A stretch of 64,000 nt of DNA, from NCBI RefSeq assembly GCF_963556105.2, contig NZ_OY829945.1:849001-913000 (forward strand), read 5' to 3'. A program made the position numbers and the translations under genes. Position 1 is the stretch's first letter, and the number at the start of each line of letters is the position of its first letter. The notes below the pieces were generated by a model. It had not been told where the DNA came from, did no database searches, and saw only the letters and a list, made by a program, of their open reading frames with translations. Below, in pieces: positions 11,828 to 57,964 of this stretch. Origin of the DNA: an uncultured Tolumonas sp. (lineage in GTDB: Bacteria; Pseudomonadota; Gammaproteobacteria; Enterobacterales; Aeromonadaceae).

Positions 11828-12996
11828 GTCTGTGGATCTGAACGAATATCATGAACGAAATCCAGTCACGTATGCATGCGCTGCAACAATTACTTGAGCG
11901 TTACAACACCGAATATTATTTGCATGATGCGCCTTCTGTGCCTGATGCAGAATATGATCGTTTGATGCGCGAACTGCGCGAGCTTGAACTGGCGAATCCG
12001 CAATGGCTGGATGCGAATTCGCCGACACAGCGTGTAGGTGGTGCCGCATTAACGACATTTGGTTCGGTGCAGCATGAACAACCAATGTTATCGCTGGATA
12101 ATGTTTTTAATGCGGAAGACTTGGCCGCGTTTGGCCGCCGAGTACAGGAACGATTATTTCGTAATGACGCGATCACGTTTTGTTGTGAACCCAAGCTGGA
12201 TGGTCTGGCCGTCAGTATTTTGTATGAGCAGGGCGAACTCGTGCGCGCGGCGACCCGCGGTGATGGTGTCACGGGTGAGGATATTACACAAAACGTGCGT
12301 ACCATTCGGGTGATCCCGTTACGTTTGAGTGGTGAACAGATCCCGGCCCGACTGGAAGTGCGTGGTGAAGTGTTCATGCCGAAAGCCGGTTTTGAGCGTT
12401 GGAATGAACTGGCATTGGCGCGAGGCGACAAGGTTTTTGCTAATCCGCGTAATGCGGCAGCAGGTAGTTTGCGTCAGCTTGATCCCGCTATTACTGCGCA
12501 GCGCCCGTTGGCTTTTTATGCGTATGGCATTGGTGTCGTTGATGAATTAACGGAATTACCAGCTTCGCATTATGAGCGCATGCAATATCTGAAACAGTTT
12601 GGTTTACCGGTCTGTGATGAGATCCGTCAGGTCACTGGTGTGGAAGGTTGTCAGGCATACCACGATGCTATTTTAGCAAAGCGTGATGCGTTGCCATTTG
12701 AAATCGATGGTGTGGTGTTTAAAGTTGATGCGATTGCGCAACAGCAGACGCTGGGATTTGTCTCACGGGCACCGCGTTGGGCCGTGGCGCATAAATTTCC
12801 GGCCCAAGAAGAGCTAACGCGGCTCAACGATGTTGAGTTTCAGGTCGGGCGTACCGGTGCGATCACGCCCGTTGCGCGTTTAGAACCCGTGCAGGTCGGC
12901 GGGGTGACGGTTTCCAATGCAACATTACACAATGCCGATGAAATTGAACGCCTCGCGGTCAAGATCGGGGACTGGGTTATCGTGCGTCGAGCTGGG

Positions 12997-13003
12997 GATG
13001 TGA
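12997..13003 (+). repeat. Left direct repeat (attL core) GATGTGA
   Basis: GATGTGA is shared with 57047-57053. Left of it is host ligA (GCTGGG) and right of it is island sequence (ATACCAC). In intact ligA this heptamer encodes the DV of AGDVIPQ. Confidence 0.85.
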
Positions 13004-13010
13004 ATACCAC
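13001..13010 (+). repeat. Left terminal inverted repeat
   Basis: TGAATACCAC; the right end carries GTGGCATTCA (57037-57046), whose reverse complement TGAATGCCAC matches at 9 of 10 bases. A likely recombinase arm. Confidence 0.65.
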
Positions 13011-13035
13011 TATCCGCAAAACCACCAGTAATTTC

Positions 13036-13044
13036 TCAAATAGA
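13036..13044 (+). repeat. Left subterminal inverted repeat TCAAATAGA
   Basis: An exact inverted copy (TCTATTTGA) lies near the right end at 57017-57025. The spacing from the two ends differs (25 bp versus 11 bp beyond the terminal repeat). It may be an accessory binding site for the recombinases; chance is possible for 9 bp. Confidence 0.4.
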
Positions 13045-13091
13045 ACAGACTATCGCGTTGCAACAACCGCGCAGCATAATGGGTAAGCATC

Positions 13092-15044
13092 ATGTCAGAT
13101 CTTTATTTTAACAAAAATTATTTAGTCATCATTGAGAAACTCGGTTTAGGTAGTGATGTAATGAATGTTGCAGAGGCTGCGTTCAGAGATCAGACGTTTG
13201 ATAATCTTTCTAATGAAGAGCTTGTAGCTAGTTTAATGATTGCTAATGCTTTGTATCGAGCTGGTCACCCAATTGTTTCCGATGAAAGATATGATTTCTT
13301 AATATCTTTGCTTGTGAGTAAAGACCCTAATAACGAATTTCTAGCAGCAGTTGAGCCTGAAGTAGTGTTTGAAAGTAAAACAGTACCTTTGCCTCAAAAA
13401 ATGTTGTCGACAGACAAAGCATATTCGTTTAACGAAATAAAAAAATGGGTTGATAGAATTCTTAAAGCAGCAGAAGAGCTTCAAATCAGTTTAGATGATG
13501 TAAATATTCGCGTTACACCAAAGCTGGACGGTTATGCAGCTTATGATGATGGGCAAATATTATATACCCGTGGAGATGGTCTGAAAGGACAAGATATAAC
13601 TCGTGCGTTTAATCGAGGGCTAAAGGTAGCTGCTGAGGGAGAACGAGGATTAGGTCCTGGTGAAATAGTCATCAATAAAAATTACTTTGATGAAGAATTA
13701 AGTCAGTATTTTGAGAACTCACGAAATATCCAAGCAGCTATTATCGCCGAAAAGAAAATCGATGAAAAAATACAAAAAGCAATCGATTTAGGACAGTGTG
13801 TATTTTATCCATTTTCATTGATTAATAATTGGATAGGACATTTTCAAAAGTTTTTAAGTAACTTTGATTCAATTATAGAGAGCATCTGGAATTCCATTGA
13901 ATATGATGTCGATGGTGTTGTTATTGAAACGACAAATGACAAAATCAAAGAACATATGGGAGCAACTAGAAAATTTCATCGTTGGCAAATTGCATTCAAA
14001 GTAAATGAAGAAGCTGCTGAAGTGGAAGTCTTGAGAGTTATTCCTCAAACATCCAGAACAGGACGTGTATCACCAGTCGCAGAATTAGTTCCAACAAAAC
14101 TTAGTGGTGCAACAATTAGCCGCGCTACTGTTCATCATTATAATATGGTTAAAAACAATGGCATTGGGACTGGAGCCGTTGTTAAATTAGTTCGCAGTGG
14201 TTTAGTTATACCTAAGATTGAGGCCGTCATTAAGCGAGTAGAACCTCAATTACCAGAAACATGTCCAAGTTGTAATACTCTTTTGCATTGGAGTGGTGAG
14301 CATTTAATTTGTGATAATAAAAATTGCCCTGCTAGAAAAGAAAACACCTTGATCCATTTTTTTAAAACATTAGGCAATATTGATGGTTTTGGTCCAAAAG
14401 TAATTGAAAAGTTGCACCTATATGGGATTGACCAAATTCATCAGCTTTATGAGTTAACTGAAGAACAGCTTATGAGCTTTGGTTTTGGTGAAAAAACATC
14501 ACAGAATTTAGTGGAGCAATTAAGAGCAAGTAGAGAAATTGAAATTGAAGATTGGAGGTTTCTCGCTGCATTTGGAGTGAATCGTTTAGGTGGTGGTAAT
14601 TGTGAAAAACTACTTCAACATCACTCACTTATTGATTTATTTGACTTAACTGTTGAAAACATTGTTTCGATCGATGGGTTTGCTGAACTAAGTGCAGTGG
14701 CTATTGTCGACGGCTTGGAAAATATAAAAGCTGAATTTTTAAAAGTTCATAATTTTGGTTTTAATTTATCTAGGACATCGGCAAACATTGGCGCTGAAAA
14801 AATTGATTCTCCGATCACTGGAAAGATAATTGTATTCACAGGGAAGATGTTGCAAGGTTCTCGTGATGACATGGAAAAACAGGCAAAAGCATTAGGCGCT
14901 AAACCTGCAAAATCAGTTACTGGTAAAACTGATTATCTTGTAGCTGGTGAAAATGTTGGGGAAAGTAAGATTAAGGCGGCTACGGACAAAGGAATTGCTG
15001 TATTAACGGAGCAAGAATATTTAAATATGTTGTCATCTAGCTAG
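13092..15044 (+). CDS. Replacement NAD+-dependent DNA ligase carried by the island
   Basis: A 650-residue, full-length but divergent LigA. Domains in order: Ia NMN-binding (RAGHPIVSDERYDFL, about 57-71); adenylation with nucleotidyl lysine in TPKLDGYAAYDDG (about 142) and motif YDVDGVVIET; OB fold (TSRTGRVSPVAELVP, VRSGLVIPKIEAV); four-cysteine zinc finger (CPSCN...CDNKNCPARK, about 395-415); HhH; C-terminal BRCT (GKIIVFTGKM...TDYLVAGENVG). It should seal nicks in replication and repair. The ATG lies 5 nt after the stop of the disrupted host ligA, with only 89 bp of island DNA before it, so it is probably expressed from the host ligA promoter by coupled translation. Its codon and base use are AT-rich, unlike host ligA. 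Confidence 0.93.
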   Translation: MSDLYFNKNYLVIIEKLGLGSDVMNVAEAAFRDQTFDNLSNEELVASLMIANALYRAGHPIVSDERYDFLISLLVSKDPNNEFLAAVEPEVVFESKTVPLPQKMLSTDKAYSFNEIKKWVDRILKAAEELQISLDDVNIRVTPKLDGYAAYDDGQILYTRGDGLKGQDITRAFNRGLKVAAEGERGLGPGEIVINKNYFDEELSQYFENSRNIQAAIIAEKKIDEKIQKAIDLGQCVFYPFSLINNWIGHFQKFLSNFDSIIESIWNSIEYDVDGVVIETTNDKIKEHMGATRKFHRWQIAFKVNEEAAEVEVLRVIPQTSRTGRVSPVAELVPTKLSGATISRATVHHYNMVKNNGIGTGAVVKLVRSGLVIPKIEAVIKRVEPQLPETCPSCNTLLHWSGEHLICDNKNCPARKENTLIHFFKTLGNIDGFGPKVIEKLHLYGIDQIHQLYELTEEQLMSFGFGEKTSQNLVEQLRASREIEIEDWRFLAAFGVNRLGGGNCEKLLQHHSLIDLFDLTVENIVSIDGFAELSAVAIVDGLENIKAEFLKVHNFGFNLSRTSANIGAEKIDSPITGKIIVFTGKMLQGSRDDMEKQAKALGAKPAKSVTGKTDYLVAGENVGESKIKAATDKGIAVLTEQEYLNMLSSS

Positions 15045-56996: not shown

Positions 56997-57016
56997 CTTT
57001 TTATTTGCAATAACGG

Positions 57017-57025
57017 TCTATTTGA
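57017..57025 (-). repeat. Right subterminal inverted repeat TCTATTTGA
   Basis: Exact inverse of TCAAATAGA at 13036-13044; possible accessory recombinase site. Confidence 0.4.
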
Positions 57026-57036
57026 TAAAATAGAAG

Positions 57037-57046
57037 GTGGCATTCA
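57037..57046 (-). repeat. Right terminal inverted repeat
   Basis: GTGGCATTCA, inverse of TGAATACCAC at the left end with one mismatch; directly abuts the right GATGTGA. Confidence 0.65.
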
Positions 57047-57053
57047 GATGTGA
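57047..57053 (+). repeat. Right direct repeat (attR core) GATGTGA
   Basis: Same heptamer as 12997-13003. Host ligA resumes immediately in frame (GAT GTG ATA CCG encodes DVIP). Confidence 0.85.
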
Positions 57054-57964
57054 TACCGCAGATTGTGGGTGTGGTATTGGAGCGCCGCAACGAAGCCGAA
57101 TGTCGGGATATTCATTTTCCAGCGCAATGTCCGGTGTGTAATTCACAAGTTGAACGTCTGCCCGGAGAAGCGGTGGCGCGTTGCTCGGGTGGTTTATATT
57201 GTGCTGCGCAACGTAAAGAAGCGCTGAAACATTTTGTCTCGCGTCGCGCCATGGATGTCGATGGACTGGGCGACAAGCTGATTGAACAGTTAGTGGATCA
57301 TGAGCTGGTACATAATCCGGCAGATCTCTTTGCGCTGAGGAAAGCACAACTGCTGGGGTTAGAGCGTATGGGCGAAAAATCGGCCGACAAGCTCTTACTT
57401 GCATTACAAACCGCTCGTCAAACGACCTTCGCGCGTTTTCTGTTTGCGTTAGGTATTCGTGAAATTGGTGAAACGACGGCACAAACGTTGGCGCAGCATT
57501 TTTCCGATCTGCCGGCTCTGCAAGAGGCGACCATCGAGTCGTTATTGAAAGTGGCGGATGTGGGGGAAGTGATGGCAAAACATCTCTATTACTTTTTCCG
57601 TCAGGAACATAATTTAGAGGTGATCCAGCGATTAGTGGCTCCGCTCAGTGCTGGCGGGGCGGGAGTTAGCTGGCAACCAGTAGAGAAAGTGGCTGTGGAA
57701 GCACTACCTCTGAATGGCAAAACCCTGGTGTTAACCGGTACGTTGTCACAATTGAACCGTGATGCCGCCAAACAAGCATTACAGGTGTTAGGTGCTAAGG
57801 TCGCCGGTTCCGTTTCGGCCAAAACAGATTTAGTGATTGCCGGTGAAGCTGCTGGCTCTAAACTGGATAAGGCGCAACAGCTTGGTGTGCCGGTTTGGAA
57901 TGAAGAACAGCTCGTGGCGTTGTTGCAAGATCCGACAGGGGTGGAGTTACCGGTTAAAGCGTGA
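57053..57964 (+). pseudogene. ligA: Host LigA 3' fragment
   Basis: 303 codons continuing host LigA from [12 protein letters not shown]: zinc finger (CPVCNSQ...[11 protein letters not shown]), HhH repeats ([43 protein letters not shown]) and the BRCT domain ([16 protein letters not shown]...[19 protein letters not shown]). No ribosome site or sensible start precedes it, and it lacks the adenylation domain. Base composition matches the host flank, not the island. No frameshifts are visible, suggesting a recent insertion or a reversible one. Confidence 0.95.

Follow-up and report, generated by a model that had tools for sequence, protein, structure and literature searches.

The interrupted ligA gene

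The DNA analyzed here (the window) is a stretch of 64,000 nucleotides from an uncultured Tolumonas sp. (contig NZ_OY829945.1, positions 849,001 to 913,000) in which ligA, the gene encoding the replicative DNA ligase, is interrupted by an element of 44 kb. The replicative DNA ligase is generally regarded as vertically inherited and indispensable. The inserted DNA carries a complete second ligase gene at one end and a tyrosine-recombinase operon at the other, and the evidence presented below makes it very probable that an integrative element landed in ligA and brought a substitute ligase with it, and that decay of such elements makes the swap permanent. The features that bound the element are listed below with their positions in the window.

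11005..11781, plus strand: host zipA, upstream flank (open reading frame; same neighbor in relatives)
11851..13002, plus strand: host ligA 5' part, codons 1-384, ending ...RRAGDV (open reading frame, translation, Pfam domain search)
12997..13002, plus strand: 6-bp core GATGTG at the left end, crossover copy next to the ligA 5' part (junction reading; empty site)
13003..13010, no strand: left terminal inverted repeat AATACCAC, with one mismatch to the right-end GTGGCATT (end comparison)
13036..13044, no strand: subterminal TCAAATAGA (inverted copy at 57017-57025)
13092..15044, plus strand: NAD+-dependent DNA ligase of phage type, 650 amino acids, first gene of the element (open reading frame; Pfam, NCBIfam and PHROG profiles)
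57037..57046, no strand: right terminal inverted repeat GTGGCATTCA (end comparison)
57047..57052, plus strand: right 6-bp core GATGTG (junction reading; empty site)
57053..57964, plus strand: host ligA 3' part, 303 codons (IPQIVGVV... up to the stop), which continues the frame of the 5' part on joining
58406..62296, plus strand: host purL, downstream flank (open reading frame; flank common to relatives)

The element in ligA occupies positions 13003-57052 (44,050 bp), and the frame of the ligA 5' part runs 27 codons into it before reaching a stop at 13086. When the flanks are joined in silico, the sequence RRAGDVIPQ and with it the reading frame are restored. An empty site is present in two genomes of the same genus, G074 (one contig) and G071, in which the flanks are adjacent, 92-94% identical at the DNA level and overlapping by 5-6 bp (G numbers denote genomes, G000 being that of the window, and L numbers denote fetched loci or stretches). 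The G+C content in 2-kb windows is 0.44-0.52 in the flanks versus 0.29-0.42 in the interior of the element. A ligA split in the same way occurs in G016, whose assembly is a single contig, and on the complete chromosome of an Acinetobacter (NZ_CP125669; L039/L096). The original prediction, drawn from the letters of the window, had placed the cut after codon 384, with the remaining 303 codons resuming in frame 44 kb away, and this is exact to the base. It had also named a complete second NAD+-ligase as the first gene of the insert, now assigned to the 650-amino-acid frame at 13092 by its Pfam domains, and a tyrosine-recombinase operon at the other end, which lies at 51059-56901 on the minus strand. 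Its proposal that an essential gene is split and a substitute supplied is strongly supported by the sequence.

The putative replacement ligase

The island ligase contains the adenylation domain PF01653, the OB domain PF03120, HHH_5 and BRCT; no zinc finger is among the Pfam matches listed, and the protein scores under the NCBIfam LigA cut-offs. The KxDG motif (K144-LDG) and four cysteines (C391, C394, C407 and C412) are invariant across three island ligases. The best profile is a phage family (phrog_3869, 395.7 bits), and two IMG/VR contigs (L007 and L089) encode a ligase that is 50% identical to the island ligase. On L007, the ligase stands after a ClpP-like gene, as read by eye.

In the window, the ligase starts 5 nt past the stop of the truncated ligA frame. 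This spacing, with the ligase start taken as that of the longest frame, falls between -14 and +14 nt in 15 of 18 elements, and in the other three it is 71, 73 and -74 nt. A scan found no promoter-like match between the ligA 5' part and the ligase, which is a weak test since 0.6 matches are expected by chance. The geometry and the lack of a promoter-like match in between suggest that translation of the ligase is coupled to that of the truncated frame on the host's ligA transcript, and the island ligase probably takes over from host LigA.

The recombinase operon

The end of the element opposite the ligase carries a four-gene operon (51059-56901, minus strand), whose gene order, 681 (with altered residues), 635, 195 and 450 amino acids, matches that in the relatives read.

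51059..52411, minus strand: R450, XerD-like tyrosine recombinase (family search; catalytic residues by eye)
52408..52995, minus strand: R195, small operon protein without a family (third gene in related operons)
52952..54859, minus strand: R635, large protein of tyrosine-recombinase type (R-H-R-Y by eye; no Pfam or NCBIfam match)
54856..56901, minus strand: R681, recombinase-like with altered residues (KxxR for HxxR, FGN for LGH; by eye)

The AlphaFold model of R681 is poor (mean predicted local distance difference test 63, predicted template modeling score 0.41) and a Foldseek search with it gave no match at E<=0.001, so the kinship of R681 to recombinases rests on the reading of its motifs and on its position in the operon. 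In G016, the first gene of the operon is split into two frames (L019:17656-19966), and the element there may be immobile. The window genome also holds a weak second relative of R635 within a 650-amino-acid frame (G000:C5:156547-157155), possibly part of another element.

Occurrence in the Gammaproteobacteria

Relatives of the recombinase were sought in samples of the window's family (75 genomes), its order (394 genomes) and its class (369 genomes). The family sample yielded one more genome (G016), and the order sample added G217 as a further full-length recombinase match, with six more genomes matching weakly; the class-wide sample contained no close recombinase besides the window's. A scan of viral contigs with R635 gave no confirmed relative, and plasmid searches (three records with R681, ten with R635) returned distant relatives only, on plasmids of Pseudomonas and Providencia (24-32% identity). 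The layout of the window recurs in G016 and G217: ligA 5' part, ligase, other cargo, four-gene operon and ligA 3' part.

The ligase itself was traced by scanning GTDB species genomes with three ligases as queries in the form of two peptide patterns, which gave 59 loci, nearly all from Gammaproteobacteria by title. The ligase stands behind a cut ligA 5' part at 21 loci (including the window, G016 and the Vibrio genome G851), at three sites in ligA; among these, L069 lies across a contig break, L034 is partly decayed, and L044 and L058 were read from the 5' side only. Both ligA parts were inspected for 16 pairs, ten on one contig and six over two contigs of a draft. The cut falls at codon 384 in eight pairs read from both sides and in L069 read from its 3' side, as it does in the window and G851; at about codon 337 (GRTGA|TPVA) in five pairs, with L046 cut at about 338 as judged from its 5' side; and, in G472, at about codon 142 (TRGDG). 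The distance between matched ligA parts on one contig ranges from about 16 to 72 kb, and the ligase lies inside the element ends in all 14 elements with both ends read. The terminal inverted repeats are GGTGTCACC.../...GTGACAC in most elements, AATACCAC/GTGGCATT in the window and AATGTCATGTTC/GAACATGACATT in G217. The 6 bp beside them may differ between the two ends, as in L060 (left GACGTG, right GATGTG). In the sample of the window's order, 14 of 394 genomes (window included) carry the element-type ligase: in three it sits in a split ligA, in eight it stands beside zipA without a full ordinary ligA 5' part, and three are undecided.

Recombinase and ligase travel together in this group. A set of 49 genomes with the element-type ligase was defined from the 59 loci by setting aside L044, L048, L058, L059, L063, L070, L071, L079, L081 and L084 (G217 is among the 49). 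A full R635 gene is present in 13 of these genomes and ligA is split in all 13; with the window, G016 and G851 the count is 16 of 16. The search of genomes for the operon called for in the original prediction places it no more than about 4 kb from the ligA 3' part in 14 of the 16, and in the drafts G469 and G438 it lies on contigs without a ligA part; no close relative was found outside ligA without a ligase, all 16 close-family operons being in split-ligA genomes. Thirteen of the 16 come from genomes picked by their ligase, and in the searches not so picked four of four operons (the window included) are in ligA. Acinetobacter elements at site 337 and site 384 have ligases that are 90-96% identical but R635 proteins that are 47% identical, which indicates that the recombinase module was exchanged while the element stayed in ligA. 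The third ligA site, in G472, is occupied by an element with a distant version of the operon (793, 781, 176 and 467 amino acids) and the same ligase type.

Ligase content of element-bearing genomes

A search of the 4.0-Mb window genome with PF01653 recovered the broken host domain and the island ligase and nothing else, and the same search of G016 and G217 likewise recovered these two only, with no second intact host-type ligA. A PF01068 (ATP-dependent ligase) search of ten genomes found none in G000, G016, G444, G073, G074 and G470. As judged by these domains, the island ligase is the only recognizable complete DNA ligase in the window strain. Profile matching across the 49 ligase-bearing genomes found an intact host-type LigA frame in none: 16 have a broken LigA, one (G482) has a remnant, two Motilimonas genomes have a 497-498-amino-acid match of LigB size, and 30 show the element-type ligase only. 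A second intact host-type ligA, which had been named as an observation that would overturn the prediction, was thus not found in the window genome, in G016 and G217 or in any of the 49.

Decay and replacement of ligA

Several loci appear to be intermediates between a split ligA and a locus occupied by the element-type ligase. The Idiomarina locus L034 keeps the ligA 5' part and the ligase; R635 is not matched there, and the second half only of the ligA 3' part is present. In UBA5122 (L077), relics of ligA lie directly on either side of the ligase and no recombinase is matched. Relics of ligA stand beside the ligase at eight loci in total (L034, L049, L055, L077, L087 and G179, with L036 and G073 resting on short matches); relics of the 5' part are seen at L049, L055, L077, L087 and G179, weakly at L036, and at G073 over about 30 bp. 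In Alteromonas/Glaciecola, the host gene that follows ligA lies 7.8 kb (L087), 2.6 kb (L048 and L076), 0.7 kb (L056) or at most about 35 bp (L062, L064, L070 and L072) behind the ligase, and in Colwellia (L043) this distance is 3.2 kb.

A swapped locus occurs in the window's own genus. In G073, a genome that is 87% complete, zipA and the start of the intergenic region are followed by a ligase of the element type (58% identical), then by some 300 bp of leftover sequence and the purL flank. Ordinary ligA frames of 612-714 amino acids are present in nine of the ten other genomes of the genus, the frame of 612 ending at a contig edge. One genus thus holds intact, split and swapped ligA.

On a tree of the ligases, rows in which the ligase stands behind a cut ligA 5' part (labeled E) interleave with those labeled R (zipA directly before the ligase) or X, with at least 13 changes between E and R-or-X; ten U and six P rows were left out of this count. 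Well-supported branches force 11 changes for E, and the tree as a whole was built by a quick method and contains several long branches. Outside this set, the rows that come closest belong to two phage contigs and a plasmid. The element-type ligases of Thioglobus-type symbionts and their relatives (L079, L080 and L083) make up a deep-branching clade; G477 and G479 (L080 and L083) show no other NAD+ ligase match, which suggests an old swap.

Divergence estimates separate the ligase from the gene that its element interrupts. In three Acinetobacter pairs, synonymous divergence (dS) of the ligase is 0.18, 0.21 and 0.13 versus 1.20, 1.67 and 0.35 for the host ligA 5' part; by these simple NG86 estimates, in which the host values are near saturation, the ligase is about 2.7 to 8 times less diverged between species than host ligA. 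The lower dS of the ligase implies that it moved between species. The ratio of nonsynonymous to synonymous divergence (dN/dS; also NG86) is 0.14-0.22 for the ligase in five pairs, and the ligase is under purifying selection.

Proposed mechanism

To the observed anatomy, exact site, empty site and recurrence, and to the lack of another ligase domain, the decay series and the selection on the ligase, the following scheme would add recombination chemistry, ligase activity, expression from the ligA promoter and excision, all as predicted from the DNA. The four-gene tyrosine-recombinase operon would join a circular form of the element to the 6-bp core in a conserved ligA motif (RAGDV|IPQ), splitting ligA. 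The end that comes to lie behind the ligA 5' part bears the phage-type NAD+ ligase, starting a few bases from the stop of the truncated frame, and ligA transcription with translational coupling would express this ligase at once in LigA's place. Precise excision would restore ligA, and the cell would not be trapped while the element is intact. Loss of the ligase alone should be lethal. Decay of the recombinase genes or of the ligA 3' part would make the swap permanent, after which the rest of the element could be deleted and the ligase would stay as the replicative ligase. The original prediction also described the substitute as an addiction device. This would be true of imprecise deletions and of decayed elements, but as a general description it goes too far, since an exact crossover between the 6-bp repeats should regenerate ligA.

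Evidence against the scheme and alternative explanations

A number of observations sit poorly with a substitute ligase that has replaced LigA on a mobile element. PF01068 matches occur in G217 and G466, with weak ones in G851 and G454, so the island ligase need not be the sole ligase in those four genomes. In Alteromonas sp. KUL49 (L076), the only matched NAD+ ligase lies in two frames of 230 and 454 amino acids, perhaps through an error in the draft. The E rows are more clustered on the ligase tree than shuffled labels would be (13 changes versus a mean of 18.3). Many R loci come from metagenome-assembled genomes or drafts, in which a gene that seems absent may simply fall into a gap. A promoter-like match, no better than chance, lies on the plus strand close to the right end and allows for expression from the circle, and the element could be immobile in the window strain, ligase activity, circle and excision being predictions. 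Finally, the ligA 5' parts have dN/dS ratios of 0.03-0.11 in three pairs, which could mean that they are still used; these low values may instead reflect the history before insertion.

The alternative that fares best, although it is unlikely, is that the element-type ligase is an old chromosomal variant of ligA native to the zipA locus, which elements captured later, the clean loci being the source. Loci with zipA directly before the ligase are indeed common (26 of the 62 non-phage, non-plasmid tree rows are labeled R), a Glaciecola clade of five is entirely R (with the downstream side checked in four), and exchange from a clean locus to an element is possible at single nodes of the tree. The report on an island in tmk (PMC10653934), described below, leaves the same alternative open in the parts covered. 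Against it stand the relics of ordinary ligA beside the ligase at the eight loci given above, two of them on short matches. The nine genomes with ordinary ligA and the one swapped genome in the window's genus, the interleaving of E and R rows, and the two phage contigs and plasmid as nearest outside rows likewise count against it.

It is quite improbable that the two halves of ligA still form a working split LigA and that the island ligase is a passenger. The 5' part is an open frame of 360-433 amino acids in 15 of the 49 genomes and the 3' part is mostly open, and the low dN/dS of the 5' parts points the same way. Against this, no start signal was identified for the 3' part, the element-type ligase is the only one matched in 30 of the 49 genomes, swapped loci lack one or both halves, and the low ratios may be older than the insertions. 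In the parallel case of the tmk island, a working split protein was put to the test and rejected (PMC10653934).

Two unrelated events, in which a phage ligase was recruited first and freed ligA for an unrelated island, are a still weaker explanation and can be given very little credence. The ligase is of phage type, as such a recruitment would have it, but it lies within the element ends in 14 of 14 elements, at the ligA 5' junction and at three target sites, it is about 2.7 to 8 times less diverged at synonymous sites than host ligA, and not one of the 49 ligase-bearing genomes retains an intact host-type ligA. An assembly or contamination artefact is scarcely credible: the window genome is a 6-contig draft of 4.0 Mb with 4.8% estimated contamination, but the exact core repeat, the empty sites and the same structure in closed genomes make the misassembly that the original prediction had allowed for unlikely.

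Related operons at other genes

Integration in ligA with a replacement ligase remains the preferred explanation for the close family, and more distant operons extend the pattern to other core genes. The recA gene is not known to be strictly essential. In the Vibrio genome G958 (L162/L166-L167), recA is split at IVEIY|GPESSGK in the Walker-A region; a full recA, 87-90% identical to the split parts, stands at the operon end, the 3' part lies about 18 kb away and the repeat is AATCTAC. In another Vibrio genome, G944 (L163-L165), thyA is split after GRVYGV and a full thyA of 283 amino acids, matching the 5' part over its first 63 residues at 78% identity, stands at the far end.

Other relatives adjoin genes of a different kind. 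Of 16 Vibrio stretches fetched around related operons, the neighboring gene was read in 11 (L148, L151, L153, L156 and L160 are not counted), and among 12 further stretches hints of a target come from L111, L112, L117 and L121 only. Relatives of the G472 operon adjoin comM-type (Mg-chelatase-like) frames of 305-332 amino acids, identified by Pfam in L111 and L117 and from sequence in L147, L149, L150 and L155. The remaining neighbors are a sigma-54 response regulator (L112, where a cut is not established), a mechanosensitive-channel-like gene (L121) and, as read from sequence, a thioredoxin 3' part (L152), an FAD oxidoreductase (L158 and L159) and a umuD-like gene (L154). No substitute was seen beside comM and the other non-ligA targets in the stretches fetched, which for most of these elements cover one end only. 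Since comM and the other targets of the distant relatives are not known to be essential genes, these relatives, which show no ligase in the stretches read, limit the rule seen in the close family and do not refute it. In G117 and G448 (L110 and L116), a class A beta-lactamase-like gene, coding for the same protein in both genomes, stands close to a related four-gene operon.

Relation to known elements

Two published islands resemble the window element most closely. The recA mobile element (RME) of Vibrio cholerae S24 is a 33-kb island that splits recA, carries a divergent full recA and an integrase at opposite ends, has 9-bp inverted repeats and excises as a circle, restoring host recA (PMC4405046). 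Like the window element, it splits a core DNA-metabolism gene and bears a complete divergent copy at one end and a recombinase at the other. It differs in that target and payload are recA, and the parts of the report covered describe no series of decayed or swapped loci (PMC4405046). In Pseudomonas putida KT2440, a 65-kb island splits the essential gene tmk and its last gene encodes a phage-type enzyme that takes over, as shown by genetics; tmk-type islands occur in other genera, and stand-alone substitutes replace tmk in some strains (PMC10653934). There, target and payload are tmk and dNMPK, and the sections covered leave the direction of evolution open (PMC10653934), whereas for ligA the direction is given by the relics and by the one genus with all three states. 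By sequence, the RME and the tmk island share with the window element a target split inside its coding sequence at a specific site and a complete divergent gene of the same function at an end of the island.

Two families of recombinase-bearing elements were considered and set aside. GInts carry at one end a four-gene operon (ginABCD) encoding three tyrosine-recombinase-type proteins and one small protein, have large variable cargo and insert site-specifically with short imperfect direct repeats and a 6-nt stagger (PMC5385486). The window element resembles them in operon make-up, variable cargo, site specificity and 6-nt core, as far as that report was covered. GInts sit at gene ends or starts, and the parts covered mention no substitute for the target (PMC5385486). 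The ginABCD operon encodes, in this order, two RHRY recombinases, one that lacks the first Arg, and the small protein, whereas here the order from the end is 681, 635, 195 and 450. The strand-biased circularizing integrative elements (SE) have the order intA-tfp-intB-srap and a median size of 15.7 kb, and no gene substitution is described in the parts of the report covered (PMC10214605). SE and the elements described here share inverted terminal motifs that are set off from the host DNA by 6 bp, which can vary from one end to the other; the intA-tfp-intB-srap order is found neither in the window operon nor in its relatives. Because gene order differs, the elements are not filed under GInt or SE. 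Gamma-mobile-trio (GMT) islands, which encode the proteins GmtX, GmtY and GmtZ, were also considered. No Gmt family is among the NCBIfam matches of the four window proteins and eight proteins of three related operons, the presence of Gmt models in NCBIfam 20.0 being unchecked.

The original prediction knew of no element that swaps in a whole ligase. The principle itself is not new, having been published for recA (PMC4405046) and tmk (PMC10653934) according to the parts of those reports covered. No island splitting ligA or thyA was found in the literature searched (among the matches listed; most subscription journals were out of reach). As far as that search goes, the new elements are ligA as a target, the three sites, the module exchange, the link to recA and thyA through related operons and the directional decay series. 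It is rather likely that a superfamily of four-gene elements exists in which each lineage is specialized on one core DNA-metabolism gene (ligA, recA, thyA and perhaps tmk) and carries a divergent, partly phage-derived version of it, in which modules swap yet match the target, and in which repeated decay permanently replaces core enzymes.

If true, conserved essential genes serve as safe and universal landing sites, and decay of elements is a steady route to permanent replacement of the replicative ligase and other core enzymes. The ligA loci themselves give a concrete and repeated mechanism for essential-gene replacement with its stages visible, also inside one genus, and suggest that the two isolated published cases (recA and tmk) are part of a more general strategy. 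The predicted rule is that an element has to supply its target gene when that gene is essential and need not do so when it is dispensable. Trees of ligA, recA and thyA may mislead, as may a "truncated" ligA annotated as a mere pseudogene.

Cargo of the window element

Between the ligase and the recombinase operon lie the following genes.

15346..15744, plus strand: H-NS-like protein (Pfam PF22470 and PF00816)
16317..17723, minus strand: ResIII/DEAD-type helicase (Pfam; proteins resembling it by eye lie close to the recombinase operon in G217 and G472)
18791..49829, no single strand: cargo, first part, IrrE-type peptidase, Beta_protein genes, PTS permease, lactonase and dehydrogenases (Pfam/NCBIfam)
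18791..49829: cargo, remainder, ROK regulator, GMC oxidoreductase, MFS transporters, LamB and OmpC-like porins and a chemotaxis receptor

An integrative conjugative element was considered; no conjugation family is among the matches of the 30 of 35 open reading frames of at least 120 amino acids that were searched, a search that was not exhaustive. The cargo of the G217 element is unlike that of the window. The H-NS-like gene, directly after the ligase, is a possible silencer of the AT-rich cargo.

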